Shown piece after piece: positions 7,545 to 32,193 of a stretch of DNA of 64,000 nucleotides. The notes beneath the pieces were generated by a model. The model made no database searches. It worked only from the letters and a program-made list of their open reading frames with translations, and had not been told where the DNA came from. The translations under genes and the position numbers were made by a program. The DNA lies in assembly GCF_027925145.1 (NCBI RefSeq), contig NZ_AP027130.1, forward strand, positions 1,054,001 through 1,118,000. The letters are read 5' to 3'. This DNA comes from Thermodesulfomicrobium sp. WS (GTDB lineage: Bacteria; Desulfobacterota; Desulfovibrionia; Desulfovibrionales; Desulfomicrobiaceae). How positions within the stretch are numbered: position 1 is the first letter of the stretch; every line of letters starts with the position of its first letter.

Positions 7545-9206
7545 GTGCGGCTGTCTTCCATCCTCCCTCGGGCGGCGCAGAGGCAATGGGGAGGAAGGTT
7601 GCCCGTGGCCGTGGTGTTTCCCGAGGCCCCAGAGGCAGCCTTGTCCACCTTGGGCTGGCAGGTGGTGTACCGCCTGCTGGCCGAAAATGACCTCTTCTGC
7701 GTGGAACCGGTCTTTGCCGACCCAGCATCCCCGCGGCCCAGATCCGTCCATACCGGCACGGATTTGGGCCGTTTTGCACTGGTGCTGGCAAGCCTCAACT
7801 TTGAGGGCGACTATCCGGCCTTGATGCGGCTCTTCATGGATGCCGGCATCCCTGTATCGGCCCAAGATCGTGGGGATTGGCCGCTCATTATGGCTGGCGG
7901 TCCGGTGGCGTTCCTCAATCCCTTTCCCGTGCTGCCAGCCCTGGACGCCCTCTGGTGCGGCGAGGCTGAGGCGGGTTTTCTCCGCGTGGCCGAGCGTATC
8001 GCCCGCACTTGGGTGCGCGGAGGCAGCAAGGCCCAAGCCTTGGAGTCCCTGGCCGCCCTCCCCGGATGCCTGGTCCCGGGGCGAAGCCCGCTTCCGGTCC
8101 AGCGCCAGGTGGTCGCAGACTTGCGCACCCCGGCGCATTCGGTCTTCGTCAGTCCCGAGGCCCGGTTTGCGGGGATGTTTCTTCTCGAAGTCAACCGTGG
8201 CTGTCCCTACGGGTGCCGTTTTTGCGCCGCAGGCTCCATCTACCGACCTGCCCGGCAGGCCTCCATGGAGGCCCTGCAGCGTATTGTGGAAGCGGCATCT
8301 CCGCGCAAGGTGGGGTTGGTCGGCACGGCCCTTACCGACTGGCCGGATCTCATGCCGTTTCTTTCCTGGTTGCGGGGTCGGCGGGCGCAGTTTGCCCTCT
8401 CTTCCGTGCGCGCCGATGGTCTGACCGAAGAGCTTTTGGCCTTTCTGCGCCACGCCGGGATACGCACCGTGACCTTGGCCCTGGAGGGCGCGAGTTCCCG
8501 GCTGCGGGCCGCCATGAACAAAGGCCTGGATGAGGATGCCGTGCTGCGGGTGGTGGCCACCATGAGCCGACTGCGTTTTGAGACCCTCAAGCTCTATCTC
8601 ATCGTGGGTTGGCCTGGCGAGGAAGAAGCGGATTTCAAGGAATTGGAGGGGTTTTTGGAGCGCATCCAGCAGGCCCGGCGTGCCGGGCAGGCAGGCCGCG
8701 CTGCGGGTCTCAAGCTCATCCAGCTTTCTGCCAGCGCCCTGGTGCCCAAGCCCTGGACCGCCATGCAATGGGCCCCCATGGCCTCTCTGGAACGCATTGC
8801 GGCGGCCATGGTCCGGGTTCGGTCCATGGTCGCCCGGCATCGCGGCATGCGTTTTTCTGCGGAAAACGCCCGCCAGGCCTGTATCCAGGGGTATCTCGCC
8901 CGTGCGGACGAGTCGGCCTTTCCCGTGATCGTCGAGGCCGCCGAGCACGGGTGGGGGAAGGTGTGGCGTTGCCATGGGGCATATATCGAGGCCGAGGCAG
9001 GTCGGCCGCGTCCGGTGGCGGATCCGCTGCCGTGGGAGCGTTTGGACGTCGGGGTGCGGCGGGCGTATTTGCGTGGCCAATGGGAAGCCTTTGGCCGCAG
9101 TCGGCCCACGCTGGCATGCCCCCCGGGGTCGTGCAGCGCGTGCCGGCGCTGCGGCATGGAGCGTATCATGGAAACGATGTTCGAGAAGGAGGTGCCGCAA
9201 CCATGA
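7545..9206 (+). CDS. Radical SAM protein, function unknown
   Basis: This 553-residue protein starts with GTG five bases after ftsZ. The radical SAM cluster motif CPYGCRFC (cysteines 220, 224 and 227) sits after EVNRG and is followed by an AGSIYRP segment. Before it lies a region of about 200 residues, possibly a degenerate cobalamin-type N-terminal domain. The C-terminus has a second cysteine cluster (CPPGSCSACRRC), which could bind a metal or an auxiliary cluster. The architecture is similar to B12-binding-domain-type radical SAM proteins of the YgiQ/TIGR03960 kind. The substrate is unknown and I do not assign one. It overlaps the next gene by an ATGA junction. Confidence 0.8.
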   Translation: MRLSSILPRAAQRQWGGRLPVAVVFPEAPEAALSTLGWQVVYRLLAENDLFCVEPVFADPASPRPRSVHTGTDLGRFALVLASLNFEGDYPALMRLFMDAGIPVSAQDRGDWPLIMAGGPVAFLNPFPVLPALDALWCGEAEAGFLRVAERIARTWVRGGSKAQALESLAALPGCLVPGRSPLPVQRQVVADLRTPAHSVFVSPEARFAGMFLLEVNRGCPYGCRFCAAGSIYRPARQASMEALQRIVEAASPRKVGLVGTALTDWPDLMPFLSWLRGRRAQFALSSVRADGLTEELLAFLRHAGIRTVTLALEGASSRLRAAMNKGLDEDAVLRVVATMSRLRFETLKLYLIVGWPGEEEADFKELEGFLERIQQARRAGQAGRAAGLKLIQLSASALVPKPWTAMQWAPMASLERIAAAMVRVRSMVARHRGMRFSAENARQACIQGYLARADESAFPVIVEAAEHGWGKVWRCHGAYIEAEAGRPRPVADPLPWERLDVGVRRAYLRGQWEAFGRSRPTLACPPGSCSACRRCGMERIMETMFEKEVPQP

Positions 9207-12200
9207 GGTATGTGATTCGTGTCCTGATCCTTTTTTGGGCGGCAATCCTGGCAGGGCTGGTGACTGTACTCGTGGAACCGGCGCTGGCGACGGCGGTGGG
9301 GATGCCGGCGCACCGGTGGGCGATGATTGCTTTGGCGGCCGGTGTCGGGGGCGGGGCGAGCGTTGCCATGGTGTGGACGGTTGGGGGGCGCATGGCCTGG
9401 GATCGTCTGATTGCCGTGGCCGTGGTGTGGGCGGCGCTGGCGGCGGCCTATCAGCCGGGGCTTGCGGTATGGACAGCGCCGCGGGCGTGGGGGGATGTGC
9501 TGCGCCTCTCGGAGGTGGCGGTGGTCTTGGCGGCCATGGTCCAGGGGTGGGTGGCGTTGGGGTGCGCCTTGTGGCGCAAGAGCCTGCCGCCGCTGCGGGC
9601 CTCTGTGGCCCTGCTGCTGATCGTGGCGGTGGGCAATATCCTTTTTATGCTCCAAAACCCCGTCATGCTCCAGGGCCTTGCCCGCACCCTGCCGCTTGCT
9701 GCGCGGGCACAGGAGCTGGCGGGCCGAGTGGTGGTGCTGGCTGCTGCCAATGTGGGGCTGGCCGCGGCCTTGAACCTCCTGTGCATGGGGCATGTGTTGG
9801 GCCTGGGGCGGCTGTGGGGGCTTTTGGTGCTTGCTGCGGCTGCTGCCGGGATTTCGCCTCTGTGGGCCGAGCTGGGGGCATCGCCCATGGCCGCGGCCCT
9901 GCCGGCCCCGCTTCCCCCTTTGGCGGCGGTGCTGGGGGTGGCCCTTGCCCAGGGCAGTCTCTGGGCGGAGGTGTTTTTGATGACCGGCCTGGTCATGGAC
10001 GCCATGCACGGCCGCCGGCCCGCCTGGTATTGGGGATATCCTGCGTTTCGTGACGGCCTTGGCCGGGGCGCGGCTTACGGCACGCTCTTTTTGGGTCTGG
10101 TGCTGGTCGCGGACGCCGTGATCCATTGGCCATGGGTGGAGCGCGCCTTTGCCATGGCGCCGTCGCTTTCCTGGATGGCCCTGGGGATAACGGTCATGCC
10201 CCTGGCCGTGACCGTGCTGGAGTCTTTCGACGGCGGGCGGCCGTTCTTCCAGCGGCTGGGGGAGAACTATCGCCGCTGGCCGCTCTTTGTGCACGGCGCG
10301 GTGTTCGGCCTTGCCCTCTCGGCCTTGCAGCCGGTGGAGATCGTGCCGCTTCCCGCGGGGCAGCGGTTTCTGCTGGGCGCGCTCCTTGGGGTGATCGCCG
10401 GAGCGGGGGGGGCATTGGTGTGGGATTTGGGCGAAGTGGCTTGCGGCCTGCGCCGCCATCTGCGCTCGTGGCGGACCTATGGGGTGGCGGCGGGCCTGGG
10501 GATCTTTGTGGGCGGGGCCATGGCCTGGTATGTGGACCCTTCGCAGTCCGCCGTGATCGGCAACAAATTCCGCCAATATGCCACGCTGTTCGCCGAGGGC
10601 GGGGGGAGTTACGTCATCTACCCGCTCTTTAGCAAATGGGGGGCCATGGATTTGGGAGCGCGCGGCGGCGGGGCCCTGCTTTTGTTCCAGGAATCGGTGT
10701 CGGGAGTCATCAATTGGTCCCTGGCGGCGCCTCTGTTCAGTGTGAACTTTTTCCTGCTGACGGCCCTCTTCACCCGCTCCTGGGCACCGCTTCGGCTGCT
10801 CGCCAGCCGCGACGGGCTGGTTTTGATCGCCGAGGGCACGGTGCGCGTGCTGCGCTGGGGGCTGTGGATGGCGCCGGTCATCTATTCGTTTTTGCGCATT
10901 TCGCCCGAACCTACCTGGTACAACCAGGACGGCTTGGTGCGTACGCTTGCCGCCATCATTCAGGATTGGCGCTTGGACCCCTCCGCCTTTCGCTTGTGGA
11001 GCCGGGAGGTCTTTCTGGGTATTTTGGCGTATGACTGGTTTCGCATCCTCATCTGGTTCGATCACATGGGCCTGCGGGTGGCCACGCTGGTGAACCTGTC
11101 CTTTGTGGGGGGCGACCGGTTGGACGAATTTTTGGCCCGTTTCCTTGGGGCGCGGGTGCGGTCGCGCTGCATCCCTGAAGCGGTGCGGCGTTTTGCCACC
11201 TGGGCGCCGCTGCTCATCCCCTTTTATTTGCCCATGGGCGCGGACTGGGCCTACGTGTGGGACGGAGCCGAGGCCGTAAGCCGCACGGGTGCAGGGCAAA
11301 TCGGTGTGCTCTTCCCGGTGATCGGGGCTTTTCTCATCGGCAGCGGCCTGATGGTGGCTGCGGCCTGCAGGAGAGAGTCTCGGGCATGCGCCGTGGGGGC
11401 AGCCGGGCGGTGCCCGGCGCAAGACATCGTGGTGCACAACGGCGTGTATGCCTCCATCTTTGGTCGGGATGGCCGTGGCTATGCCCGGGTGTTCCGCGCC
11501 GCACGGCATGGACACGAGATCGACCTGACCGCTCGGCCACTGTCCCGGGCCCACGACGTGGGCCGCATCGTGTACTTTCGTGCGGGTGAAGCCTTGTGGA
11601 GCCTCGGCTGCCGGCCCACGCGGCACCCCGAGGCGGTGCACACCGTGGTGCGCTTGGACGACCTCTCCGTGCGGCAGACCTGCTCGTGCCAGGGCATCGA
11701 GGCGCGCATGGACGCCGTGGTGGCGGAGGACGCGCCGGGTGAGGCGTGGATCGTCCACCTCACCAATGTCTCGGACGCACCGGTGCAGCTGGAGATCACC
11801 TCCTACCGGGAACTCACCCTGAACGACCCCTCGGCCCAGGCCCGGCATCCCTTTTACAATCGCCAGCACATCACCACCTGGTGCGTGGTGGAGGAGAGCC
11901 CGGCCCCGCGTTCGGCCGCCATCTTTGCCAATAACCGCCAACTCAAGGCTGGCGAGCCGCCGCGGCCAACGCGCGAGACCTACGTGCACTTGGTGGCCGG
12001 CTTGGAGGACGAGTCCCGGCTGGTGGGCTATGAAGACAGCCGGCTGCGCTTTTTAGGCCATGGCACGCTGCGTCGGCCGCAGGGGCTTTGGGGCGTACCG
12101 CAGCCCATCTCCGACCAGAGCCTCCACGTCACCTTCGATCCCATCGCGGCCTTTCGTCTGGCCGTGGATCTGGCGCCGGGAGATACCACGGCCTTTGTGC

Positions 12201-14677
12201 TCGTGGACGCGTACGGACCGAGCCCCGAGGCTGCCATGAACCTGGCCGCCCGCCTGGCAGGCATCGACCCCTTGCCTGCGCGGCCCAAGGGGCAGCCGAC
12301 CTCCCTGCCCATGGTCGAGCCGGACCTTGCCGCGGCACTCACCCAACAGCAGGGGCCGTGGTTTGCCTTTCGGGACCAAGTCCCCAGCGTGCAGGTACCG
12401 GGGATCACCCCGCGGCGGTTTGCCCACCTCATGGTCAATCCCCTCGGCTATGGCGTGGTGGTGACCAATGACGGCGCCATCGCCTCGTTTTGGGGCAACT
12501 CCCAGCAGAACGCCCTGACGCCCTATAGCGCCGATGCCACGACGGTACAGGAACCCGGGCAGATGCTCTACGTGCGCGACCTGGAGAGCGGCCGGGTGAC
12601 CTCGCCCTTGCTCGTCCCCTTCCGGGAGCCTGAGGCCGAATGCCGCGTGGAGTACGGCCTGGGCTGGTGCCGCTTCCACAAGGAGATGGACGGCCTTGCC
12701 ATGGAGTGGACCATCGCCGTGCTCCCGGACCGGCCCATGGAACTGCGGCTGTTGCGCCTGCACAACCATGGCTCGGGGGAGCGCCGTCTGGCCCTGACCA
12801 TGTATGCGCAGATGATTTTGGCCGAGATCCCCGAAGATAGCCGCGGCCAGGTGGAGGCTTGGGCGGATGCGCCGCGCTCCATGCTCCTCTTTACCCGGCC
12901 GGAAAACCGGTACCGCAAAGGCGTGGCCTACGTGGCCTGGAGCGTGGAGACCACGGCCTCGGAGACGGTCATGAGCCGGTTTTTGGGGGAAGGCCGGGAC
13001 CTGAGTATGCCGTATTTCGTGGAGATGGGACATTCCGATACCACGCAGGAGGATGACGGCCTGCGCGTGGCCGCCATGAGCGGGGAAGTGCGGGTGCCTG
13101 CCGGTGGCACGGCTGTCGTGTGGATGGCGGTGGGCCAGGAGCCCAGCGCCGAGGACTGCCAGCGGCGAGTGGCAGCGATCCAGGCCGTGGAGGACGTGGA
13201 GCGGGAGATGGCGGCGGTCGAGACCTGGTGGCAGCGGCGTTTGGCCGGCGGAGTCCAGGTGGAGACCTCGGCCCCGGCCGTGGACCGGTTGGTGAACGTG
13301 TGGCTGCCGTACCAGATCCTGACCGCCCGGCTGTGGGGGCGCCTGGGGCCGCAGCAGCGCAGTGGGGCGTATGGATTCCGGGATCAGCTTCAGGACGTGC
13401 TCCCCTTGTGCGTGGGCATGCCCGCCTTGGCCCGGCGCCAGATCTTGCTCCATGCCAGTCAGCAATTCCTCGCGGGCGATGTGCTCCAATGGTGGCATCC
13501 TGCCCCGGACGGGGCCACCGGCTTCGGCATGCGCAACCGCGCCTCGGACCCGCATCTGTGGCTGCCGTATCTGGTGGCCCATTATGTGGAGACCACGGGG
13601 GATGACTCCATTTGGGACGAGCGCGTGCCCTTTATGGAGGGGCGACCCATTCCCCCGGGTGCCGAGGGCATTGCCTTTGCGCCGACGCCCTCCCGGGATC
13701 GGGCCACGGTGCTGGAGCATTGCCTGCGCGCCGTGGAGCGCACCTGGCGCCGTCGCGGGCGCCATGGGCTACCGCTCATGCTCGCCCATGATTGGAACGA
13801 CGGTCTGTCGGCCGTGGGCGTGCGCGGCAAAGGCGAGAGCGTGTGGTTGGGGTTTTTCCTCCATCTCACCTTGCGTCAGGTGGCGGAGGCAGCCGCCAGC
13901 CGCGGCAAAAAGCGTCTGTCCCGCCAGCTGTTGCGGCGTGCGCAGACGCTGGGGAGCGCTCTGCAGACCGCCTGGCGCGATGATCACTTCGTGCGCGCCT
14001 TTACCGATGCGGGAGAGGAGCTCGACTATCTCGATGCCCTGACCGCGGCCTGGCCCATGCTTTCGGGGGCCGTGCACCTGCCGCAGGCAGAGGCGGCCCT
14101 GGTGCGCGGTGCGGCCTCCCTGGAAAAGCCCAACCTGGTGCAGCTTCTCGATCCGCCCTTTACCGAGCGCTCCACCCCTTACCCCGGGCGCATCGCCGAC
14201 TATCCGCCGGGGGTGCGGGAAAACGGCGGCCAGTATTCCCACGGCTCGTCCTGGTTGGTGGACGCCCTGGTGGCCCTGGCCCGCCAGGTGTTGGCCCAGG
14301 GGGATGTGGAGCGCGCGGCGCAGCTCCGCCGCCAGGCCCTGCGTCTGTGGCTCAAGATCTCGCCGCTGACCCATACGCTTCCGGAAACCATGCCCGTGTA
14401 CGGGCTTGCCCCCCACCAGCAGGCGGCGGACATCTCCTTTGGCCCGGGCTACGAGGGCCGGGGGGGATGGAGTTGGTACACCGGCGCTGCCGCCCGCATG
14501 CTCTGGGCCATGTACGGGATTTTGGGTCTGCGCTTTGAACGGGGCAAACCCACGGTGGACGCCCGTTTGGCGCGCCTGGGTGCGGAGTTTGCCGTGCACC
14601 GGATCGTGGTGGACGGCGCGTGTGTGTATCAAGCCCCGGACGCCACGTGTGGTGCGGACCTGGGAGGGCAGCAGTGA
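9203..14677 (+). CDS. Large polytopic membrane protein with C-terminal GH94/glycosyltransferase-36-like domain
   Basis: This is a protein of about 1,824 residues. The ATG at 9203 has a strong AGAAGGAGGTG site; the open frame extends further upstream but lies over the radical SAM gene. Residues 1 to about 735 hold roughly 14-16 hydrophobic segments. From about residue 740 a soluble region resembles the C-terminal half of cyclic beta-1,2-glucan synthases and GH94 phosphorylases: NPLGYGVVVTNDGAIASFW, GAYGFRDQLQDVLP, DWNDG at residues 1530-1534 (the position of the family's general acid) and NGGQYSHGSSWLV. The GT84 transferase domain present in full NdvB/Cgs proteins is not recognisable. It probably remodels or degrades a beta-glucan at the membrane. 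Direction of reaction, substrate and topology are inference. Confidence 0.8.
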   Translation: MRYVIRVLILFWAAILAGLVTVLVEPALATAVGMPAHRWAMIALAAGVGGGASVAMVWTVGGRMAWDRLIAVAVVWAALAAAYQPGLAVWTAPRAWGDVLRLSEVAVVLAAMVQGWVALGCALWRKSLPPLRASVALLLIVAVGNILFMLQNPVMLQGLARTLPLAARAQELAGRVVVLAAANVGLAAALNLLCMGHVLGLGRLWGLLVLAAAAAGISPLWAELGASPMAAALPAPLPPLAAVLGVALAQGSLWAEVFLMTGLVMDAMHGRRPAWYWGYPAFRDGLGRGAAYGTLFLGLVLVADAVIHWPWVERAFAMAPSLSWMALGITVMPLAVTVLESFDGGRPFFQRLGENYRRWPLFVHGAVFGLALSALQPVEIVPLPAGQRFLLGALLGVIAGAGGALVWDLGEVACGLRRHLRSWRTYGVAAGLGIFVGGAMAWYVDPSQSAVIGNKFRQYATLFAEGGGSYVIYPLFSKWGAMDLGARGGGALLLFQESVSGVINWSLAAPLFSVNFFLLTALFTRSWAPLRLLASRDGLVLIAEGTVRVLRWGLWMAPVIYSFLRISPEPTWYNQDGLVRTLAAIIQDWRLDPSAFRLWSREVFLGILAYDWFRILIWFDHMGLRVATLVNLSFVGGDRLDEFLARFLGARVRSRCIPEAVRRFATWAPLLIPFYLPMGADWAYVWDGAEAVSRTGAGQIGVLFPVIGAFLIGSGLMVAAACRRESRACAVGAAGRCPAQDIVVHNGVYASIFGRDGRGYARVFRAARHGHEIDLTARPLSRAHDVGRIVYFRAGEALWSLGCRPTRHPEAVHTVVRLDDLSVRQTCSCQGIEARMDAVVAEDAPGEAWIVHLTNVSDAPVQLEITSYRELTLNDPSAQARHPFYNRQHITTWCVVEESPAPRSAAIFANNRQLKAGEPPRPTRETYVHLVAGLEDESRLVGYEDSRLRFLGHGTLRRPQGLWGVPQPISDQSLHVTFDPIAAFRLAVDLAPGDTTAFVLVDAYGPSPEAAMNLAARLAGIDPLPARPKGQPTSLPMVEPDLAAALTQQQGPWFAFRDQVPSVQVPGITPRRFAHLMVNPLGYGVVVTNDGAIASFWGNSQQNALTPYSADATTVQEPGQMLYVRDLESGRVTSPLLVPFREPEAECRVEYGLGWCRFHKEMDGLAMEWTIAVLPDRPMELRLLRLHNHGSGERRLALTMYAQMILAEIPEDSRGQVEAWADAPRSMLLFTRPENRYRKGVAYVAWSVETTASETVMSRFLGEGRDLSMPYFVEMGHSDTTQEDDGLRVAAMSGEVRVPAGGTAVVWMAVGQEPSAEDCQRRVAAIQAVEDVEREMAAVETWWQRRLAGGVQVETSAPAVDRLVNVWLPYQILTARLWGRLGPQQRSGAYGFRDQLQDVLPLCVGMPALARRQILLHASQQFLAGDVLQWWHPAPDGATGFGMRNRASDPHLWLPYLVAHYVETTGDDSIWDERVPFMEGRPIPPGAEGIAFAPTPSRDRATVLEHCLRAVERTWRRRGRHGLPLMLAHDWNDGLSAVGVRGKGESVWLGFFLHLTLRQVAEAAASRGKKRLSRQLLRRAQTLGSALQTAWRDDHFVRAFTDAGEELDYLDALTAAWPMLSGAVHLPQAEAALVRGAASLEKPNLVQLLDPPFTERSTPYPGRIADYPPGVRENGGQYSHGSSWLVDALVALARQVLAQGDVERAAQLRRQALRLWLKISPLTHTLPETMPVYGLAPHQQAADISFGPGYEGRGGWSWYTGAAARMLWAMYGILGLRFERGKPTVDARLARLGAEFAVHRIVVDGACVYQAPDATCGADLGGQQ

Positions 14678-15651
14678 GGCGGGTGTGGGTGTTCGTCCCG
14701 CCCCGGCCGGTGGTGAGCGGCGGTATGCGGGTGCTGGTGCAGGTGGCCCGGCAGCTGCGGGCGTGGGGGGGCCTGGCTGGGGTGCTTTGCTGGGAAGAGC
14801 CGCTTGCCGAGGCTTCGGACCTGCCCTGGCAGGCGGCGCGCAGCGCCCCCCTTGCCGCAGGCGACGCCCTGCTGGTGCCGGAGGGCTGGCCGGGCGCCCT
14901 CACCTTGGGGGTCCGCGCAGGCTGCCGGTTGGTGGTCTACTGTCAGAACTGGGCCTATCTCTTCCATGGGCTCGCCGAAGGCGTGCGCTGGCAGGACCTG
15001 CCGGTGGAGTTTCTTGCAGTCTCTCAGCCGGTGGCCTGGTATATCGAGCAAGTGACCGGGAAAGCGCCTGCGGTGGTGCGGCCTGCCATTGATCGCTCTC
15101 TGTTCCATCCCCCTCCCGTTTCTCAGTCCCCGCGCCCGCTGCGCGTGGCCTTCATGCCGCGTAAAAACAAGGCCATGGCCGAAGGCGTGCGCCGCATCGT
15201 TGCCGAGCGCAATCCGCATCTGCCGTGGCAATGGGTCCCCATCCATGGCTTGGACCCGGCAGGTGTGGCCGAGCTATTGCGTTCTTGCGCCATTTTTCTT
15301 GCCACCGGGTTTCCTGAGGGCTGTCCGCTGCCGCCCCTGGAGGCCATGGCCTGCGGCTGCCTGGTAGTAGGGACCACGGGCTTTGGCGGTTGGGACTATG
15401 CCCGGCCGGTGGACTCCAAGGCCCCGCTTCCTTCGGGGATCCCTTTGCGCCCAGTGCCGTGGGGAGGCAATGGCTGGTGGGTGGCGGACGGCGACATGCT
15501 GGGTGCGGCCCTGGCCCTGGAGCGGGCGGCGGCGTGCCTGGAAATTGCGGATGCGTGCCAGCAGGTGCGCGCAGCAGCCTTTCGGACCGTGGCGGCGTAC
15601 GATGCGGAGCACCAGGCTGCGGAGGTGGCGGCGTGGGTACAGGGCCTCTAG
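14674..15651 (+). CDS. Glycosyltransferase, GT4-like
   Basis: This 325-residue protein starts at a GTG overlapping the stop of the preceding GH94-like gene. It looks like a short GT-B transferase: VFVPPRPVVSGGMRVLVQVA at the N-terminus, then an acceptor-side half. A donor half carries GFPEGCPLPPLEAMACGC, the E-x7-E type nucleotide-sugar-binding motif of GT4 enzymes. The protein is shorter than most GT4 members. Position suggests it acts in the same glycan pathway as the downstream transferases. Donor and acceptor are unknown. Confidence 0.75.
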   Translation: MRRVWVFVPPRPVVSGGMRVLVQVARQLRAWGGLAGVLCWEEPLAEASDLPWQAARSAPLAAGDALLVPEGWPGALTLGVRAGCRLVVYCQNWAYLFHGLAEGVRWQDLPVEFLAVSQPVAWYIEQVTGKAPAVVRPAIDRSLFHPPPVSQSPRPLRVAFMPRKNKAMAEGVRRIVAERNPHLPWQWVPIHGLDPAGVAELLRSCAIFLATGFPEGCPLPPLEAMACGCLVVGTTGFGGWDYARPVDSKAPLPSGIPLRPVPWGGNGWWVADGDMLGAALALERAAACLEIADACQQVRAAAFRTVAAYDAEHQAAEVAAWVQGL

Positions 15652-18084: not shown

Positions 18085-19436
18085 TGGAACAGGTGCGGTA
18101 TCTCATCATCGGCGCCGGTCCCACGGGCCTTGGGGCGGGCGTGCGCCTGCGGCAATTGGGCATCGAGGATTTTCTTCTCCTGGAGCGGCACGACTATGCC
18201 GGCGGCCTGTCGGCAAGCTTTCGCGACGCGGCGGGCTTTACCTGGGACATCGGCGGCCATGTGGTCTTTTCCCGCCTGGAGCCGTTTTTGCGCCTGCTGG
18301 ATCAGGCCCTGGGCGAGGACGCCCTCACCCACCAGCGTCGTGCCCGGGTGCGCCTGGCGGACCGGTGGATCCCCTATCCCTTCCAAAACAACATCCGCCA
18401 TTTGCCCAAGGAACTGGTGTGGGAATGCGTGCAGGGCCTTTTGGCTTCCCGCCTTGCGCCGCAGGAAGCGGCCCATTTCGGCCAGTGGATGGAGGCCGTG
18501 TTCGGGGCGGGCATTACCCGGCTTTTCATGCAGCCGTACAATTTCAAGGTCTGGGCCACCCCGGCCGAGGCCATGGACTTTCGCTGGATCGGCGAGCGCG
18601 TGGCCGTGGTGGACCTGGCCGACGTAGTGCGCCGCATCATCCTCGAAGAAGACGCCACCGATTGGGGCCCCAACGCGGTGTTTCGTTTCCCCAAGCATGG
18701 CGGTACCGGGGCCATTTTCCGCCGCATTGCTGAAAGCATTGCGGAGCACATCCGCTACCAGGCCCCAGTGCACCAGGTGGACTGGGAGAAAAAAATCGTC
18801 ACGTACGGCGATGGGCACTGTGTTGGCTATGGGGATTTACTCTCCACTATGCCTCTGGACCTTTTTGTCTCGCAGGTTGTGAGTCCCAAAGACCCGCATA
18901 TGGTGGAAGCCGCCTCCCTTTTGGAGCACAACGGGGTCTATGTCTCGGGCATTGGCATTGCCGGGCTGCGCGAGGACCCCACCTGCTGGATGTATTTTCC
19001 GGAATCCAATTGCCCCTTCTACCGGGTGACCAACTTCCACAACTATTCGCCCTTCAATGTGGCCGAGCCCGGGAAACAGATGGCCTTCATGAGCGAAACC
19101 TCCTTTTCGCGCCATAAGCCGGAAGACCTGGACGCCATGCAAGACGCCGTCACCCGAGGGCTTCAGAACGTGACCCTTATGCGCGCCGAAGACGCCATCG
19201 TGACCTGCTGGGAACACCGAGTGGACTACGGCTATCCCGTGCCCACCCTGAGCCGCGACCGCGCCCTGGCCACGATCCAGCCCTGGTTGGAGGCGCGGCA
19301 CATCTTCTCTCGGGGCCGTTTTGGTGGCTGGAAATACGAAGTGGCCAACATGGACCACAGCGTAGTGCAGGGCATGCAGTGGGCCGAGCGGATGGTGCTC
19401 GGCACAGTGGAACGGATCTATCAGCTGCCGCAGTAA
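18084..19436 (+). CDS. FAD-dependent protein, UDP-galactopyranose mutase / amine oxidase fold
   Basis: This 450-residue protein has an N-terminal dinucleotide-binding motif GAGPTGLGAG, the LLERHDYAGGLS segment that contacts FAD and a DIGGHVVFSR block as in COG1232 proteins and UDP-galactopyranose mutases. The C-terminal RGRFGGWKYEVANMDHS has the layout of the flavin-closing segment. In glycan clusters such proteins usually isomerise or oxidise a nucleotide-activated or lipid-linked sugar. Classical mutase motifs are not clear enough to name it glf. A GAGGAGGAGGG site precedes the ATG. Its 3' end overlaps the convergent gene 19421-20668 by 16 bases. Confidence 0.75.
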   Translation: MEQVRYLIIGAGPTGLGAGVRLRQLGIEDFLLLERHDYAGGLSASFRDAAGFTWDIGGHVVFSRLEPFLRLLDQALGEDALTHQRRARVRLADRWIPYPFQNNIRHLPKELVWECVQGLLASRLAPQEAAHFGQWMEAVFGAGITRLFMQPYNFKVWATPAEAMDFRWIGERVAVVDLADVVRRIILEEDATDWGPNAVFRFPKHGGTGAIFRRIAESIAEHIRYQAPVHQVDWEKKIVTYGDGHCVGYGDLLSTMPLDLFVSQVVSPKDPHMVEAASLLEHNGVYVSGIGIAGLREDPTCWMYFPESNCPFYRVTNFHNYSPFNVAEPGKQMAFMSETSFSRHKPEDLDAMQDAVTRGLQNVTLMRAEDAIVTCWEHRVDYGYPVPTLSRDRALATIQPWLEARHIFSRGRFGGWKYEVANMDHSVVQGMQWAERMVLGTVERIYQLPQ

Positions 19437-20668
19437 GGCTCGTTGCGGGAGCGAGCCTCTGCCCACTGGTCGTAGAGGGTGGCAAGCTCCATCTCGCCTT
19501 GGGCCGTAAACATTGCGCTCAAGTGTCGGGCCAAGCGGATCAGCTCGGAAGCGTGCTGATCCGCTTGGCGTTCCTCTTCTATGAGTTTGCCAGCGTAGCG
19601 GGTGAGGACCGTATCCCCAGCGCGGGTAGCGGTCTTGGCCAGGGCAAGGAATTGCTTCACACCCGGGAAGAACTGGGCGGCCAAAAACCGCAAGGGGACG
19701 GCTTCCTGCCAGGCCCCGCGTGTTTCGAGCCAATGGCCCAGACGCTCGTAGCCGGGCTGCCAGAGCGGCTCTTCGGTGATGGCGGCAAGCCAGGCCGCCG
19801 GGTCTGTGGTGTGGGCGAGGCGCGCCGCCATCGTTTTTTCCCGCTGGGGGGAGAGGAGCATGACCGGATGCAGGCTGGGCGAGAGCCCCATGCGGTAGCC
19901 TTCGGCCTGCAGATGGCGGTGGAAGTCTGGGCGGATGCGGCCGGCCCAGCGTTGGGAAAAGCGCCGGGCATTGGCGGTCTCAGCGGCAAAGCGGCCTGGG
20001 GTTTGGCTCGTGAAGTGGATGAGAGTGCTCTGGGGCTGGCATTGGATTGGTTCTCCCAGCCCTTGGGCGCGCAGGCAGAGATCCACGTCTTCGAGGCCAT
20101 TGGTGTAGCCTTCATCGAAACCGCCAAGACGCTGAAAGAGTTCGCGCGCTAGGGCCAGGGCCGCGCCGGTGACCGCCTGCACGCGGCGCGGGCGGCTGAC
20201 CGCCGGGTGGCTGGCGGGAAATTGTTCGAACACATGGCATACCTTGGGCCCTGGGGTAAAGGCCACCCCCACGTGCTGCACCCGTTCCGCCCCTGGGTAG
20301 AGGAGGCGGCTGCCGACGATGCCGCCTTGGGCGCGCAGCGCTGTCACGAGCGGGTCCGCAAATCCAGGCAGGGCCAGGGTGTCGTTATTGAGAAACAAGA
20401 GCAATGCACCCTGGGCGTGGGCCGCGCCGCTGTTGCAGCCCCGGGCGAATCCTAAATTGGCGGGATGCCGAACCAGCCGAAAGGCGGCGCCAAAGAGGGC
20501 GGTCCCCAGCTCGGGGAGCTCGTGGGCGGTTTCGTCTTCGGAGCCGTTATCCACCACGATGATCTCTACCGGCCAGGCCGGAAGCTCCTTGCGCAGGCTC
20601 TGGAGGCAGTCGCGCGTGAGCCGCCACTGGCCGTAGACCGGGATGATGATGCTGAGCACTGGGGGCAT
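19421..20668 (-). CDS. GT2 glycosyltransferase, rhamnosyltransferase-like
   Basis: This is a 415-residue GT-A enzyme. LSIIIPVYGQWRLTRDCLQS, IIVVDNGSEDET, NLGFARGCNSG and LFLNNDTLALPG are the standard order of GT2 motifs. GGFDEGYTNGLEDVDLCLRA marks the acceptor/catalytic-base region of the WcaA/RfbF type. About 170 C-terminal residues without clear family match follow. It is the last gene of the minus-strand operon and lies 15 bases downstream of the next transferase. Its tail overlaps the convergent flavoprotein gene. Donor sugar unknown. Confidence 0.85.
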   Translation of the reverse strand: MPPVLSIIIPVYGQWRLTRDCLQSLRKELPAWPVEIIVVDNGSEDETAHELPELGTALFGAAFRLVRHPANLGFARGCNSGAAHAQGALLLFLNNDTLALPGFADPLVTALRAQGGIVGSRLLYPGAERVQHVGVAFTPGPKVCHVFEQFPASHPAVSRPRRVQAVTGAALALARELFQRLGGFDEGYTNGLEDVDLCLRAQGLGEPIQCQPQSTLIHFTSQTPGRFAAETANARRFSQRWAGRIRPDFHRHLQAEGYRMGLSPSLHPVMLLSPQREKTMAARLAHTTDPAAWLAAITEEPLWQPGYERLGHWLETRGAWQEAVPLRFLAAQFFPGVKQFLALAKTATRAGDTVLTRYAGKLIEEERQADQHASELIRLARHLSAMFTAQGEMELATLYDQWAEARSRNEPYCGS

Positions 20669-20683
20669 GGTGCAACCGTTGGG

Positions 20684-22324
20684 TCAGGAGCGCTGCGCGT
20701 GCTGCGGAGGCAGCTCTGGGACCAGATGCAGATTGTTCATCGTTTGCAGGGCTTGCTGATGGGGGAGAAAACGGTAGAAAAACTTGACGTCATTGCCCCG
20801 TACATTGCCGATTTTTGTCATATCGTGGGATGTTTGCCTGCCGACGCCGGACATTTGATAGTGGATACATTCCACCAGTCCACAGTACATGACCGTAAAC
20901 CCGTGCAGGCAGAGATCGATGTCATGGGCGATGTCGTCCATTTGGGATGGGGAGAAGCGGATATCAAAGGAAGGGACAGTCTGGATGGCTTCGCGGGTCA
21001 GTACGTGGCAGCAGCCCATGACGTTTGTGGTTGGACGGATGAAATCATAGAATCCAGCGTCATAGTTCCATGTCGGCGTGTCGAGACTGATGCGCAGCAG
21101 ATCTTCCCGGGCCACGGCAATATTGTGGTAGAGATATTGGAGCCGTTTGGGGGTGCCTGGAGCAAGGATCTTGGCTCCAGCCACTGCAGCCTTGGGGGTG
21201 CGGGAGAGGACTGTGAGCAAGGTAGTCAGCCAATGCGGGGGGATCTCCACGTCGTCGTCGAGAAAGGCCACATAGTCGGCGCGCTCTGCCGCCTCGGTGG
21301 TAAGCAGCCAATTGCGGGCCGCCGGGGCGCCGATGTTGGTCGGCAGCGCGATGACCTCGATGGCATTGGCAAAGTATCGTTCATTGATGGCCCGAACCGC
21401 AGCGGCGGAGTCGTCGGTGCAATGGTTGAGGAGCACACTGATGCGTGCATTGCCCAGGTGAGACTGGGCGAGGCTTCGCAGGGTCTTCTGGAGAAGTTCG
21501 CTCTTGTTGTACGAATAGAGGAAAATGGCGATGTTTTTTTCAAGGACGGATTTGTCCTCAGTAAATCCGTCTCGAATTTGCTGCATTCTGCATTGCATTG
21601 GAATTTGGAGAGGATCCAGAGCAATGGATTTTTCCAATGCCATGAGAGCCTTCTGCCTGTCTCCTAAACGCACATATGCTTCGGAGACAAAATTGAGGAC
21701 CACTTCGTTATGTTCGATCTGGGGCCAGATATTTTCGGTAATGGAGGCAGCCCGTTGGTAGTCGCCTTGAATAACTGCATATTGCAAGATCTGGGCTTGA
21801 AGGAGCGGCTGGAGTGGAGCCGGGACCTTGGCAAGGTCGAGCCAATCTTGCCCCACCGGGATGTTTCGTTCCAGGTCCGTAAGTAAGAGGAGATCGATGA
21901 GGGCAGGGGAGTAGGGGTATTGGAGATATATCTTGGAAAGTATCGTGTGGCGAAGATGGATATCGTTTTGTGTGCAGAGATTCGTGATCTTTTGGGAGAT
22001 GCGCGGAGGGATCTGGATCTTTTCGAGTATGGGAAGGAGCGGGTCGGCGGCACCGGTCATTTGCTCGGCAATGCGGCGGATTTCGCTGTGGAAGGGCTGC
22101 AGGTGGACGAGCTTGCGGATCAGATACCCAAACCAGGCGCGAATGCGAGGGCCCACTTCTTCTGGGGGCGTACGATTGAGTCGATTGGCGTATGCGGTCC
22201 CGGTAACCGCATCGAGGAGAAAATTCCCAAGGTAATTGCGGAGGTGATCGATGACTTCTGTAGAGGAGAGTGCGTCGAGTTCACCATACAGCCCATTGTC
22301 AATGATTCGGTACGTGATGTTCAT
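20684..22324 (-). CDS. Glycosyltransferase, GT2-type with helical N-terminal region (NIGAPAARNW group)
   Basis: This is a 546-residue protein. About 260 N-terminal residues are helical and TPR-like (for example AYVRLGDRQKALMALEKSIA). A GT-A domain then starts near IAIFLYSYNKSELLQKTL. It carries LPTNIGAPAARNWL, VAFLDDDVEIP, MGCCHVLTREA and FDIRFSPSQMDD, the same blocks as its two paralogues. Its start overlaps the stop of 22321-23895 by 4 bases. The gene is visibly less GC-rich than the plus-strand paralogue. Which sugar each paralogue adds is unknown. Confidence 0.8.
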   Translation of the reverse strand: MNITYRIIDNGLYGELDALSSTEVIDHLRNYLGNFLLDAVTGTAYANRLNRTPPEEVGPRIRAWFGYLIRKLVHLQPFHSEIRRIAEQMTGAADPLLPILEKIQIPPRISQKITNLCTQNDIHLRHTILSKIYLQYPYSPALIDLLLLTDLERNIPVGQDWLDLAKVPAPLQPLLQAQILQYAVIQGDYQRAASITENIWPQIEHNEVVLNFVSEAYVRLGDRQKALMALEKSIALDPLQIPMQCRMQQIRDGFTEDKSVLEKNIAIFLYSYNKSELLQKTLRSLAQSHLGNARISVLLNHCTDDSAAAVRAINERYFANAIEVIALPTNIGAPAARNWLLTTEAAERADYVAFLDDDVEIPPHWLTTLLTVLSRTPKAAVAGAKILAPGTPKRLQYLYHNIAVAREDLLRISLDTPTWNYDAGFYDFIRPTTNVMGCCHVLTREAIQTVPSFDIRFSPSQMDDIAHDIDLCLHGFTVMYCGLVECIHYQMSGVGRQTSHDMTKIGNVRGNDVKFFYRFLPHQQALQTMNNLHLVPELPPQHAQRS

Positions 22325-23895
22325 GCGGGAACCCCCATCTGGGCTTTCCAGAAATGCCGAGTGTCTTCCGAAAAATCATCCCAGGCGCGGGCAAGCGCCG
22401 TGCGCCAGGCTTCCGCCTCGGCCTCCTGGACGCGGGCATGGATGCTGCGCAACTCTTGGCCGCGGAATTTGCCTTCCATCTTTTGGTGATTGCCCCATAC
22501 ATGGGCCCAGGCAGCCTCGCTTTTGGGTGCGGCGCTGCCTGCATCTTGCAAGTGGATGATACGCACCCGGCCGTCGTAGAGCACCATGCCGCCATGTTTC
22601 CAGATTTGGATATCCCGCTCCAGGTCGTCCACCTGAGAGGGGGAGAACCGGACATCGAAGTCAGGGACCCCGAGGCGCTCCATGCGGCGGCGGTGGAAGA
22701 GATGGCAGCAGCCCATGACGGAGAGGCACGGCCGCACCACGTCGTATTGTCCAAGGTCGAAGAACATGGGGGCATTGGGGGTAAAGCGGATGTGCTGTTC
22801 CCCGACTTCCTGGAAGTAGCGGTACACATACTGGATGGTGTGGAAGGCGTTGGGGTTCACCACCTTGCCGCCCACGGCGCAGTATTGGGGATGCGCTTCC
22901 AAATCGGCGAGAAAGCGGGAGAGCCAATGGCGCGGCAGCAGCACATCGTCGTCCAGGAAGGCTACGTAGCGGGCCTGCTGGACCTCCGGCAGATGCCAGA
23001 GCCAATTGCGTGCCGCGGGCGCACCGATATTGACCGGCAGATGGATGCAGCGCACCGGTCGGCCTTGGGCCACGCGGGCGACCCCGGCCTCGAGGTCTGC
23101 CGGGGAAAAGGCCGTGGATCCGTTATTGAGGAGGGTGATGGCCGCATCGCCAATGTCGGTGGCGAGTACACTTTCCAAGGTGCGGAGCGTGGTTTCCAGC
23201 TTGTTGAAGGTGTAGAAGAGGATATGCACGGTGGCATCGGCTTGAGGAAGCGCTGGAAGGCCTTCACCGAGCAAGGCCAGTTGCTCCACGGCGTGCGGCT
23301 GGGCGGGCTCAAGACGCAGGCTTGCCACGAGGTGGCGGCGCGCGGCTTCGGCGTCGCCGTGGAGCATGGCGATGGCGGCACGCAGGTTTTCCGCCCAGAA
23401 GCAGGTGGGGGCAGCGCGTTCCAAGAGCAGGTCCCGGAGTTCGGTGGCGCCTAAGCCGTGGGCGGCCCAGGCCAGGATTCCGAAGTTGGGATTGCTTGGT
23501 GCGGTGTGCGCCCAGGTGTGGGCCTCTGTTGCAACGACTTCAGGGTGCTGTCCCGTTGCCCAGAGGGAAAGCAGGATTCGGTGCCGGGCCGGGGCTGGAA
23601 GGTCGGTGCGGAGCAGGGCCAGGGGGTCGTCGCGGTGGCGCTCTATAATCGCGTCGATGGCGGCGCGGGCAGGGGCGTCCGGGAGCGGCACGGGGGCGCG
23701 TCCCATGGCCGCAGCCAAAGAGTTGGCCAGTGCCGCAAGTTCGCGGTTCCAGGGTTCCAGGGCTAGGGCATGGCGCAAGAGCGCGTGGGCGAACTCCATG
23801 TGCGCGGCAGACGGCGTGCCCTCAAGGAGCTGCTGTGCTGCCCAGATGGCCGGGGCTGTTTCCAGGGTGCCGCGGAAACGAAGGAAGAAGTGCAT
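22321..23895 (-). CDS. Glycosyltransferase, GT2-type with helical N-terminal region (NIGAPAARNW group)
   Basis: This is a 524-residue protein with an alanine-rich helical N-terminal half and a C-terminal GT-A domain. The domain begins at VHILFYTFNKLETTLRTL and shows LPVNIGAPAARNWLW, VAFLDDDVLLPRHWL, MGCCHLFHRRR and FDVRFSPSQVDDLERD. It is the third member of the local paralogue set. Gene end and the start of the next transferase overlap by 4 bases, and upstream it is 8 bases from 23904-26180, so all belong to one transcript. No clear Shine-Dalgarno sequence is visible before its ATG. Confidence 0.8.
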   Translation of the reverse strand: MHFFLRFRGTLETAPAIWAAQQLLEGTPSAAHMEFAHALLRHALALEPWNRELAALANSLAAAMGRAPVPLPDAPARAAIDAIIERHRDDPLALLRTDLPAPARHRILLSLWATGQHPEVVATEAHTWAHTAPSNPNFGILAWAAHGLGATELRDLLLERAAPTCFWAENLRAAIAMLHGDAEAARRHLVASLRLEPAQPHAVEQLALLGEGLPALPQADATVHILFYTFNKLETTLRTLESVLATDIGDAAITLLNNGSTAFSPADLEAGVARVAQGRPVRCIHLPVNIGAPAARNWLWHLPEVQQARYVAFLDDDVLLPRHWLSRFLADLEAHPQYCAVGGKVVNPNAFHTIQYVYRYFQEVGEQHIRFTPNAPMFFDLGQYDVVRPCLSVMGCCHLFHRRRMERLGVPDFDVRFSPSQVDDLERDIQIWKHGGMVLYDGRVRIIHLQDAGSAAPKSEAAWAHVWGNHQKMEGKFRGQELRSIHARVQEAEAEAWRTALARAWDDFSEDTRHFWKAQMGVPA

Positions 23896-23903
23896 AAGGT
23901 TCG

Positions 23904-26180
23904 TTATCCAAGGATTTTTTTTGCCATGGTTTGGGTGGCGGCCAGCAGGTCCGCAGGAAGCGTGATTTCTGCTTGCGGGCGGCCTTCTTCAATGATCTGC
24001 AGAAACAGCGGCAACACTTTTTCCCAGGAAAAACACGCATTCCAAAGTTCGGTGCCCAGGACACCCAAAGCCTTGCGCAGGGCTGGACGCTCTAGAAGCC
24101 TGTGGATGGCGCGGGGGAATTGTTCCAGCGGGCAGACCACCCCGCCAGCGTCCCAGTGCACACTATTGCATTGTGGCGTGGCAATCCAGGGGGTGCCGTG
24201 GTGCATTGCCTGGAGGATGACCAGTGGCCGGCATTCGGCATGGGAGGAAAGGAGCAGGATGTCCGCCTCGGCGATGGCAGCGTCCGCTTCGTGCGCGGGA
24301 AGGGGCCCGAGGATGCGGATGCGGGGATCCTGGGCCGCCAGCTTCTTTACTGCGGCAAAATAGTGCTGCTCGTGGGGCCACGGGAGGGCGGCGCCGATGA
24401 AGACCATCTGCCAGGTGCCTGGGGTCTTGGAGAGGACCTCGATGAGTCCGAGCTGGTTCTTGACGGGCCAGAAATTGCCCACGTGGACGAGAAGGGGCAG
24501 GTCTGGAGAAAGCCCGTGGCGCTCTCGAAACCCAGGGTTGGGCGCATAGGGGGTGAGGGCGTGGGGAACGAATATGGGATGCACTCCGGCGGCACGCAAG
24601 AATTGCGCGTCGAGCCCCCCTGGGGTGAGGCACATGCACAAGCGGGCGCGATGGAGTACTGCTGCGATCAACGCCTCCTGCTGGTGCGCGATCCAGCCCT
24701 GCACGAGCTCCGGATTGATGACCGGGATGAGGTGGATCGGGGTTTGGGGAGAGGCAGAAAGCATGGGGGCATGCATCCAGGAGTCCGGCTGGCCGAGGAA
24801 GAACGCCGCATGGTAGTCGGCGTGTTCGAGAAAATGCGCATACGCCGCATATTGGTCCCCAAAGTGGCTGTCCTGGAAACGCCCACTGCAGTGCCACTGC
24901 AGGATGTGCATGCCGTGATGCTGGAAGGTTTGGCGCTCAGGGATCTGGCGGGTAGCCACATGGACTTCATAGCCTTCACGGACCAGTTGGGCGCCGAGGT
25001 CTTGGAGAAAGATTTCGCAGCCTCCCAATGATGGCCAGAAAAAGTCACTTCCCAAGAGGATACGCTTGCGATGCGGCTGCACTGCTACCACTGCAGGGGG
25101 CGGCGTGTAGGATTGGGGGTGGTGCACCAGGGGCATGCAGGTGGCTTCAATCTTGGCGAGGGCGCTCGCTTCTTGCGGAAGGTCCGGGTGCAGGCTCTGG
25201 ATGATATGGATCGCAGACTGAATGGATGGATCTCGGAGTAGCTTGAGCAAAAGAAGATGTTGCTTCAGTTTTGCAAGGTAATATTGGGTGATGCTGCATG
25301 AATCATCAAAAAAATGTATCCGTTGACATGCATTTTGTAGAGATACCAGAAGAAACCCTATGATTTTGCTTAGATTGTCCTTTTGGTTTTCCTGTGCGCA
25401 TCGCAGGGCAGTTATTGCGCACCCCAGGGCATGAGCAATCCATATTTGATAAGAATTTTGCGCAAATTCCCACTTTTGCATCACTTTGAATGTTCTATGA
25501 TGCATGATGATGTCATGCTTGATCTGATTTTTTTTGTTGGCGCTCATGCTTTTTGCATGTTTTCTGTATACAACATATGTTTGAGCATGAGAGTAAAATT
25601 GCATACCGCGTACTGCGCAGCGAAACCAAAAATCATAATCTTCGCATGCGCGCAGTGTCGTATCGAAAAATCCGTTTTCCAGTGCGCGGTGACGACGGAT
25701 GATATAGGCGTGTGGGGGGGCAATGTTGAAATGGCATAGATGCAGAGGAATCGAGTCTCGCACCAACCACCAGAACCCTATGGGCGCCAGCGGTCCGTCT
25801 GGCCCCATGGAGAGGACTTCGCGGGTTTGGCAGATGGCGATATCCACATCTGGCTGGGTTTCGAGGATGGATGTTTGTACGGGAATGGTATTGGGAGCCA
25901 AAAGGTCGTCCGCGTCGAGAAAGAGAAGGTATTTTCCCGTCGCGTGCCGCATGCCCGTGTTTCGTGCCGCAGAAAGACCTGCGTTCTCTTGATGGATGTA
26001 GGTGACGTGTTCTTGGAATTGTCGGGCGATCTCCGGTGTATTGTCTGTGGATCCGTCGTCGATGACGATGATCTCTTTGGGGATGTCTTGTGCGCTTGTC
26101 AGCACGCTTTGCAGGCATTGTTGCAGGTATGCCCCGTAATTGAAACATGGTATGATAACGGAGATCAGGGGATTTTTCAT
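23904..26180 (-). CDS. Two-domain glycosyltransferase: GT2 fused to GT4
   Basis: This is a 758-residue fusion. Residues 1 to about 230 are a GT2 domain (ISVIIPCFNYGAYLQQCL, IIVIDDGSTDNTPEIA, AGLSAARNTGMRHATGK, LLFLDADDLL). A helical linker follows. From about residue 375 a GT4/GT-B domain begins with RILLGSDFFWPSLGGCEIFL, and its donor half has LVHVGNFWPVKNQLGLIEVL and SSHAECRPLVILQAMHHGTP. A single chain could therefore make two successive linkages. The DNA for the GT2-linker part (about 25.2-25.7 kb) is more AT-rich than that for the GT4 part, hinting at a mosaic origin. Confidence 0.85.
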   Translation of the reverse strand: MKNPLISVIIPCFNYGAYLQQCLQSVLTSAQDIPKEIIVIDDGSTDNTPEIARQFQEHVTYIHQENAGLSAARNTGMRHATGKYLLFLDADDLLAPNTIPVQTSILETQPDVDIAICQTREVLSMGPDGPLAPIGFWWLVRDSIPLHLCHFNIAPPHAYIIRRHRALENGFFDTTLRACEDYDFWFRCAVRGMQFYSHAQTYVVYRKHAKSMSANKKNQIKHDIIMHHRTFKVMQKWEFAQNSYQIWIAHALGCAITALRCAQENQKDNLSKIIGFLLVSLQNACQRIHFFDDSCSITQYYLAKLKQHLLLLKLLRDPSIQSAIHIIQSLHPDLPQEASALAKIEATCMPLVHHPQSYTPPPAVVAVQPHRKRILLGSDFFWPSLGGCEIFLQDLGAQLVREGYEVHVATRQIPERQTFQHHGMHILQWHCSGRFQDSHFGDQYAAYAHFLEHADYHAAFFLGQPDSWMHAPMLSASPQTPIHLIPVINPELVQGWIAHQQEALIAAVLHRARLCMCLTPGGLDAQFLRAAGVHPIFVPHALTPYAPNPGFRERHGLSPDLPLLVHVGNFWPVKNQLGLIEVLSKTPGTWQMVFIGAALPWPHEQHYFAAVKKLAAQDPRIRILGPLPAHEADAAIAEADILLLSSHAECRPLVILQAMHHGTPWIATPQCNSVHWDAGGVVCPLEQFPRAIHRLLERPALRKALGVLGTELWNACFSWEKVLPLFLQIIEEGRPQAEITLPADLLAATQTMAKKILG

Positions 26181-28072
26181 AAAAGACTATGAAGTGGTTG
26201 AGCGCAAAAGGTGCTGGTAACCCCTAAAATGGATCCCCATTGGGGTTGCCGCTGGACGCATTCTTCTGCTGCGTTGCGGGCAGCGGTGATGCGTCCTAGC
26301 GTGGTATTGACGCAGTAGAGGCGGTAGTAGGGTTGCCATTGGTTGTATGGCGCCAGGTTGGCTGCTCTGATGTAGTCAGCGATGGCCTCGGGGAGTCGGC
26401 CTGCTGCCTCTTGCCGCAGACCTCGCCAGAAGTACGGCATGGGGCGGTCTGGATGCTTGGCGATGGTCTCTTCGATACGCTTTGCAGCATCTGGATGCAT
26501 ATTGGCAATGACTTGATGCTCTTCGAGCAGACTACTTACAGGATACATGTGTGGATGCAGCGTATGCAGGCATGCCACCACTTCCGGCCAATGGGCCCTC
26601 ATGATCGTAGACATGGATCCATGCCCATGGATTCGGTAATGGAAAAAACATTGTTGGATGCGGTACGGCTTTATGCCGAGTGGAGTACATTGTATCCAAA
26701 AGTTCCAGTCTTCTGCTCCCCACGGGATGCTGGGGTCGTAACCCTGGCCCATGGTCCATAAGTCTTTGCGGTACAGCGATGCATAAGGGAATGTGTTGCG
26801 CTCGAGGATTTCCGCCCAAGAGTATTCCGGTGGGGTCCAGACATTGTTGCGCGCCCCGAACTCCTGCACATTGGAAAAGATGAGATTGATTTCAGGATGG
26901 TTGGCAATGATGTCCGCAGCGTGGTGGAGAAAGCCCGGGGCAAAGCAGTCGTCGCAATCCAGGGGCAAAATCCAATCACCACGGGCGCGGGCGATTCCGG
27001 CATTGCGGGCATCGGCCATGCCGCCGTTGGGTTTGTCGATGACGTGGATGGGCAGAGGGGTGTGTGCGTGCGCCAAGCGGTGGGCCACGGCTGAGGAGTC
27101 GTCGGTGCTCCCATCGTTGACGATAATGATTTCCAGAGGCCCGTATCGCTGGGCTACCAGGCTTGCCACAGCCTGGGGCAGGAAGGCCGCGCCATTGAAG
27201 ACAGGAATGACCGCTGTGATGGACGGAGGGGTGTTGCCTGGCTGGATTTGGATGCGGGTTGGGCGGAGATGGAGCGGGGCTTCGAAATGAACGGCATTGG
27301 GGACGAGAGAGGCATAGGCGTCGCTATCAATGCGTTGGCCTGCGTCAAAATATTGGGAGAGGGTTTCTGCATCGATGGAGTGTGCTGCAACACGGTTGTC
27401 ATAAACTTGCTGTACTCGGTTGAGTGGATTGCAGAATCCAACGGATTGCGGATATATGATGCGCCATGGCATGTGGGCAACGAGATTGGTATGTTGACTG
27501 AGTGCTGCTTCGAGAGTGTTCGGGTTATCGAAAGCGATATTTTGCAGAAGGCTGATAATGGTCGACGCCCGGTAAAGAGAACCAGAAATTTCTAAAGGAT
27601 ATCCAAAATCATACTCCGCATTGTCCCAGCGAAAACGTAACATTGTAGATTTGGGTATAGGCTCGAGCAGAGGAATTTCCTGTGAGGCATTTTGTGGGTA
27701 ACAATATACAGTATTTTTTCCTAAAAGAAGGTTCGCCGACAGCACCTCCGGACACATTTCCATGGATGTAATACATTCATGCAGGGAGAAAGGACGGTAA
27801 AAAAGGACGTCGTCTACGGCGAAGAGAATCCATGGCGCATCAGCGATAAGAGCGAGCAATTGATGGCGAAAATGGGTTTCCCGGATATATTGAACTTGAG
27901 GAAATTCCCGTTGGAGGCAATCATATTGGTGTTGATGATGTTTATTTGATGTATGATATAGTATTCGAATGGATATTTCTTCTGCTTCAATACAATTTTT
28001 AAAGAAAGACTGCAGGGCGCCGTGTAATTGTAACGCCCTGTCTTTGCTGAAAAATATTGCTTGAACGTTCAT
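26177..28072 (-). CDS. Two-domain glycosyltransferase (GT-A-like N-terminus, GT2 C-terminal domain, TPR tail)
   Basis: This is a 631-residue protein. The first 290 or so residues (starting VQAIFFSKDRALQLHGALQS, with ILFAVDDVLFYRPF) look like a divergent GT-A domain. From about residue 290 there is a standard GT2 domain: ITAVIPVFNGAAFLPQAVAS, IIIVNDGSTDDSSAV, NGGMADARNAGIARARGD, LPLDCDDCFAPG and WGAEDWNFWIQ. The last 110 or so residues are TPR-like. It overlaps both neighbours by 4 bases in the operon. Base composition is intermediate to AT-rich. Substrates unknown. Confidence 0.8.
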   Translation of the reverse strand: MNVQAIFFSKDRALQLHGALQSFFKNCIEAEEISIRILYHTSNKHHQHQYDCLQREFPQVQYIRETHFRHQLLALIADAPWILFAVDDVLFYRPFSLHECITSMEMCPEVLSANLLLGKNTVYCYPQNASQEIPLLEPIPKSTMLRFRWDNAEYDFGYPLEISGSLYRASTIISLLQNIAFDNPNTLEAALSQHTNLVAHMPWRIIYPQSVGFCNPLNRVQQVYDNRVAAHSIDAETLSQYFDAGQRIDSDAYASLVPNAVHFEAPLHLRPTRIQIQPGNTPPSITAVIPVFNGAAFLPQAVASLVAQRYGPLEIIIVNDGSTDDSSAVAHRLAHAHTPLPIHVIDKPNGGMADARNAGIARARGDWILPLDCDDCFAPGFLHHAADIIANHPEINLIFSNVQEFGARNNVWTPPEYSWAEILERNTFPYASLYRKDLWTMGQGYDPSIPWGAEDWNFWIQCTPLGIKPYRIQQCFFHYRIHGHGSMSTIMRAHWPEVVACLHTLHPHMYPVSSLLEEHQVIANMHPDAAKRIEETIAKHPDRPMPYFWRGLRQEAAGRLPEAIADYIRAANLAPYNQWQPYYRLYCVNTTLGRITAARNAAEECVQRQPQWGSILGVTSTFCAQPLHSLL

Positions 28073-30261: not shown

Positions 30262-30273
30262 ATTATACGCATT

Positions 30274-32148: not shown

Positions 32149-32193
32149 TTCCATCTCCTTTGCATGGGTATTTACCCTGCGGTATATATTCCA

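Follow-up and report, generated by a model that had tools for sequence, protein, structure and literature searches.

A conserved multi-spanning membrane domain joined to a predicted GH94 phosphorylase, and its genomic association with osmoregulated periplasmic glucans

The cyclic beta-1,2-glucan synthase Cgs (NdvB) is organised as GT84-GH189-GH94, and its GH94 domain is cytoplasmic and controls the length of the glucan by phosphorolysis (PMC10901819; PMC11842490). Soluble GH94 phosphorylases such as cellobiose phosphorylase and 1,2-beta-oligoglucan phosphorylase are single enzymes without a membrane domain. In the OpgGH (MdoGH) system of the osmoregulated periplasmic glucans (OPGs), OpgH is a GT2-type synthase, and OpgG and OpgD are beta-1,2-glucanases of family GH186 (PMC10514313). 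In the publications consulted, this system is not described as having a GH94 component. The turnover and recycling of periplasmic glucans are poorly understood.

In the current analysis we describe a gene encoded in the window, the whole stretch of 64,000 nucleotides of Thermodesulfomicrobium sp. WS DNA that was analysed, whose product of 1824 residues comprises a membrane domain followed by two GH94 supersandwich domains and a GH94 catalytic domain. The open reading frame (9203-14677, + strand) starts with the ATG at 9203, preceded by GGAGG, and ends at 14677. Its start shares an ATGA overlap with the stop codon of an upstream radical-SAM gene (7545-9206, +), and its stop is overlapped by the probable GTG start, at 14674, of a downstream GT1-type glycosyltransferase gene (14674-15651, +); both linkages are genus-local. 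Full-length homologues, with sequence identities of 74% within the genus and of 52-54% in another genus of the family, show that this is not a chance reading frame. The relatives include Desulfomicrobium proteins and a protein of an uncultured Desulfomicrobiaceae MAG with 70% identity over the membrane half.

Like Cgs, this is a membrane protein with a presumably cytoplasmic GH94 part, whose C-terminal phosphorylase region has two supersandwich domains, a GH94 catalytic domain and the same catalytic residues. Unlike Cgs, it is devoid of the GT84 domain, the Cgs N-terminal domain, the GH189 cyclase and the Cgs membrane part of 6 transmembrane (TM) segments, in place of which an unrelated domain of about 18 TM segments is found. 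The GH94 fold and the phosphorolysis residues are also shared with the soluble phosphorylases. The GH94 part is of an already known type; what sets the protein apart is its combination with a membrane domain that lacks a Pfam entry and a fold match in the PDB. In the open-access literature, our coverage of which is incomplete, no description of this architecture was found. One genome (G009) encodes both a canonical Cgs of about 2950 residues and a membrane-GH94 protein (G009:C1:503551-505707, G009:C1:2803242-2808626), so that in this genome one is not simply a substitute for the other.

The GH94 half

The only Pfam families matched by the 1824-residue protein are GH94_b-supersand, in two stretches, and Glyco_hydro_94, with scores of 236 and 212 bits respectively against curated cut-offs of 23 and 27, which places the protein in GH94. 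The first supersandwich domain (residues ~740-1010; 11420-12232, +) is the equivalent of Cgs GP1 and the second (residues ~1065-1320; 12395-13162, +) that of Cgs GP2; the catalytic domain matched by Glyco_hydro_94 spans residues 1342-1774 (13226-14524, +). In the profile comparison with NdvB/Cgs, residues 736-1798 align with the C-terminal part of Cgs over 1020 columns (hhalign probability 100%, E 6.5e-124). Cgs/NdvB is likewise the best match of this half among PDB sequences, with 390 bits, and cellobiose phosphorylase scores far below it (109 bits).

The first-pass annotation had noted a retained DWNDG motif, and the general acid of this motif, D1530 (13790-13792, +), is indeed conserved in 61/61 relatives, as are R1393, H1680 (14240-14242, +) and G1761; T1760 is kept in 60/61. 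Judging from GH94 structures, we take R1393, H1680, T1760 and G1761 to be the phosphate-binding positions. The Cgs-type profile match together with the conserved catalytic residues predicts an active phosphorylase of the Cgs type. Its specificity is presumably for beta-1,2-glucan, as suggested by the similarity to Cgs and by the genomic context described below.

The membrane half

Residues 1-734 (9203-11404, +) form a domain with about 18 predicted TM segments that has no Pfam or PDB match in sequence or fold. A membrane part of about 735 residues directly preceding the GH94 half, and the lack of a GT84 domain in it, had been proposed in the first-pass annotation, and both are borne out. Residues 1-740 have no significant Pfam match even at E<=10, and a profile comparison of the membrane half with the N-terminal 1550 residues of Cgs gives an hhalign probability of 0.2%, as does that with OpgH; it is thus unrelated to the GT84-bearing part of Cgs and to the GT2-type synthase core of OpgH. 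PF10091 is absent from the protein and from the genome containing the window. A profile search of PDB sequences with the membrane half was empty, and a Pfam search of 32 diverse members gave scattered single weak matches with no family in more than one member. An AlphaFold2 model of this half, built from an alignment of 76 sequences, is of high confidence (pLDDT 89.5, pTM 0.89), and a Foldseek search of the PDB with it returned no match at E<=0.001 to a GT-C membrane fold or to any other (lowest E-value 0.11; the top-ranked matches have TM-scores <0.15). Viral structure models also gave no match, and the statement that the domain has no known fold refers to comparison with the PDB and these viral models. 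A hidden GT84, GT2 or OpgH-like domain, which would have overturned the earlier description, was sought by Pfam at E<=10, NCBIfam, PHROGs, hhalign, PDB sequence profiles and Foldseek, and none was found.

No other part of the protein is as highly conserved as the membrane core (residues 431-700; 10493-11302, +). Among 63 complete members the mean identity of the core to the window protein is 58%, against 48% for the GH94 catalytic domain, and near-invariant columns make up 25.6% of the core against 14.4% of the catalytic domain. The core includes an invariant WYNQDG motif (residues 572-577; 10916-10933, +) on the predicted periplasmic side and a near-invariant DHMGLRVATLVNLSF motif (residues 620-634; 11060-11104, +) on the predicted cytoplasmic side. 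The membrane and GH94 halves also diverge in step with each other (Mantel r 0.93). The conservation of the core and this co-divergence argue for the membrane domain being a working part of the protein rather than an anchor, and the earlier term "membrane-anchored", correct in that this is a membrane protein, understates the role of the half that holds its best conserved region. Cgs demonstrates that membrane tethering of a GH94 domain is possible, and the domain might simply serve as a scaffold that keeps the enzyme near the inner membrane; with a core conserved above the enzyme itself and about 18 TM segments, which far exceed the needs of tethering, we regard this as highly improbable.

The same conservation above the level of the GH94 enzyme could be expected if the membrane domain were an undescribed transferase, either GT-C-like and using a lipid-linked sugar or transferring a substituent, that modifies the periplasmic glucan at the conserved outer loops while the GH94 half trims in the cytoplasm. 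The invariant acidic and aromatic residues of the predicted outside loops (WYNQDG, WYxDxxQ) could form an active site for such an enzyme. In the PDB, however, no GT-C, GT2 or acyltransferase has a matching fold, neither OpgH nor the N-terminal part of Cgs gives a profile match, and no Pfam family recurs in the 32 diverse members, so that the proposal is unlikely.

Distribution and association with periplasmic glucan genes

A profile scan of public genome contigs with the alignment of the membrane domain confirmed 107 loci, of which 80 were kept. They are distributed in Desulfobacterota and other deltaproteobacteria, Gammaproteobacteria, Alphaproteobacteria (many of them Methylocystaceae), Omnitrophota, Planctomycetes, Verrucomicrobia/Limisphaerales, Lentisphaerae, Elusimicrobia and others. 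The order membrane domain, first supersandwich, second supersandwich and catalytic domain is kept in every complete reading frame, and the two halves are never separate in complete intact reading frames; one locus (L084) is split into two reading frames, and the other fragments stop at or near contig ends. The result is a deeply conserved family of many phyla, with a membrane domain that has no Pfam or PDB counterpart, tied to periplasmic glucans.

A link to envelope biogenesis had earlier been drawn from the position of the gene after ftsZ, which lies two genes upstream with the radical-SAM gene in between. Synteny comparison confines the order ftsA-ftsZ-radical SAM-membrane-GH94 gene to the genus of the window, and the division link was dropped; the envelope link itself stands by another route, namely the co-occurrence and gene linkage of the family with OpgG and OpgH, which is much stronger than the ftsZ neighbourhood. 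In a sample of the phylum, OpgH is encoded in 6/6 carriers of the gene, representing 6 genera and 6 families, against 18/395 genomes overall (p 3.7e-9 by genome and 4e-8 by genus, each treated as independent). In a sample of the class (348 genomes) it is present in 10/10 carriers. Among 44 further carrier genomes a strong OpgH is found in 24, including 22 of the 23 proteobacterial and desulfobacterial ones; those without it are mainly Omnitrophota, Planctomycetes and similar organisms.

Apart from common genomes, direct linkage to opgG or opgGH is seen in seven loci. The gene is followed by opgG and opgH on one strand in L030 and preceded by opgG and opgH in L082, and opgG lies directly upstream of it in L019, L021, L022, L023 and L024. 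The opgG copies of these last five loci form a supported clade of their own, apart from the opgH-linked opgG of L023; the paralogue adjoining the membrane-GH94 gene in that locus (L023:7946-9610) may be a dedicated partner glucanase. OPG genes are not adjacent to the gene in the window or in the alphaproteobacterial loci. The genome of the window encodes opgGH elsewhere, with OpgH at G000:C1:1274692-1276620, and a second OpgG/OpgD-like gene that does not adjoin opgH (G000:C1:249360-250796).

The OPG link is not universal, since OpgH is absent from the Omnitrophota, the Planctomycetes and some other carriers. In carriers without OpgH the link to glucans rests on PF10091 enzymes: among the neighbours in Omnitrophota are secreted PF10091 enzymes, soluble GH94 proteins and sugar ABC permeases, along with a solute-binding protein and a ROK regulator.

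These occurrences bear on the suggestion that the protein is a novel synthase, in which GH94 would run in reverse to build beta-1,2-glucan from cytoplasmic glucose-1-phosphate and the membrane domain would export it, taking the place of OpgH or Cgs, above all in phyla where both are missing. GH94 enzymes are reversible and are used in making beta-1,2-glucan (PMC11842490), many Omnitrophota and other carriers are without OpgH, and the nearby PF10091 enzymes could process the product. Nearly all proteobacterial carriers, however, already possess OpgH, so that a second synthase would be superfluous there, and the GH94 domain of Cgs only trims. The prevailing cellular phosphate, moreover, normally favours phosphorolysis by such enzymes. 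Synthesis and export is in our judgement improbable. Replacement of OpgH by the membrane-GH94 protein in proteobacteria is rejected, as OpgH is present alongside it.

Orientation and possible function

In the 18-TM model of the membrane half, the predicted inner loops carry 17.4 Lys/Arg per 100 residues against 7.0 in the outer loops, and the net loop charge is +17 inside against -1 outside. This bias places the GH94 half, whose side of the membrane the first-pass annotation had left to be predicted, in the cytoplasm; the assignment is inferred from sequence and would hold only if the Pro-rich segment at residues ~667-685 does span the membrane, which is its weak point.

Relatives from Omnitrophota, Planctomycetes and Verrucomicrobia have additional modules that bear on the outer face. 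In 29 of the relatives, one to three extra repeats of about 140 residues, absent from the window protein, precede the membrane domain, with apparent signal peptides, judged by eye, ahead of them. The model of the repeat (pLDDT 92.9) has as its best fold match the CBM11 glucan-binding modules (E 1.3e-7, TM-score 0.57), at a sequence identity of only 12-15%. A transferase was also considered in these long N-terminal extensions and is discarded, as they have no meaningful Pfam match and a CBM11-like fold. The repeats also occur as a separate reading frame just upstream of the membrane-GH94 gene (L045:3-2111, L063:8967-9734 and L076:2-775). From the apparent signal peptides and the CBM11-like fold, the repeats are probably glucan-binding modules situated outside the membrane, with the enzyme inside.

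We propose that the protein is an inner-membrane phosphorylase of beta-1,2-glucan that faces the cytoplasm, belongs to the OPG system, carries a membrane conduit of its own and trims or re-imports periplasmic glucan, and assign to this reading a probability of about 0.45. Of the three functions suggested earlier, the membrane glucan phosphorylase and the chain-length trimmer fit best and the novel synthase less well. With the GH94 half in the cytoplasm, the substrate would be beta-1,2-glucan in the form of OPG-type chains, which glucanases of the GH186 OpgG/OpgD-like or PF10091 kind would have cut. The membrane core would pass or present the chain between periplasm and cytoplasm, and GH94 would then release glucose-1-phosphate from its non-reducing end by phosphorolysis, so that the glucan could be trimmed or recycled without ATP cost. 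The least certain step is the direction, namely re-import and trimming rather than synthesis and export. A conduit of this kind coupled to phosphorolysis would, if true, be a new mode of polysaccharide transport across a membrane, and it would account for the recovery of carbon from bacterial periplasmic glucans or for the control of their length. Stated more broadly, the membrane domain may represent a new class of polysaccharide translocase, one that takes beta-1,2-glucan across the inner membrane and needs neither ATP nor a GT2 synthase, the chain being pulled by cytoplasmic phosphorolysis or, in reverse, pushed by polymerisation of glucose-1-phosphate; this wider claim we consider rather doubtful.

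Elsewhere in the window, near the division cluster, the region 19421-32154 (-) holds a surface-polysaccharide cluster of large glycosyltransferase and methyltransferase genes, including GT2 fusions, a bifunctional GT2+GT1 protein and a GT1+methyltransferase. The gene at 50184-53513 (+) encodes a hybrid sensor kinase in which PAS domains and a receiver domain are combined with an ABC-substrate-binding-like domain.
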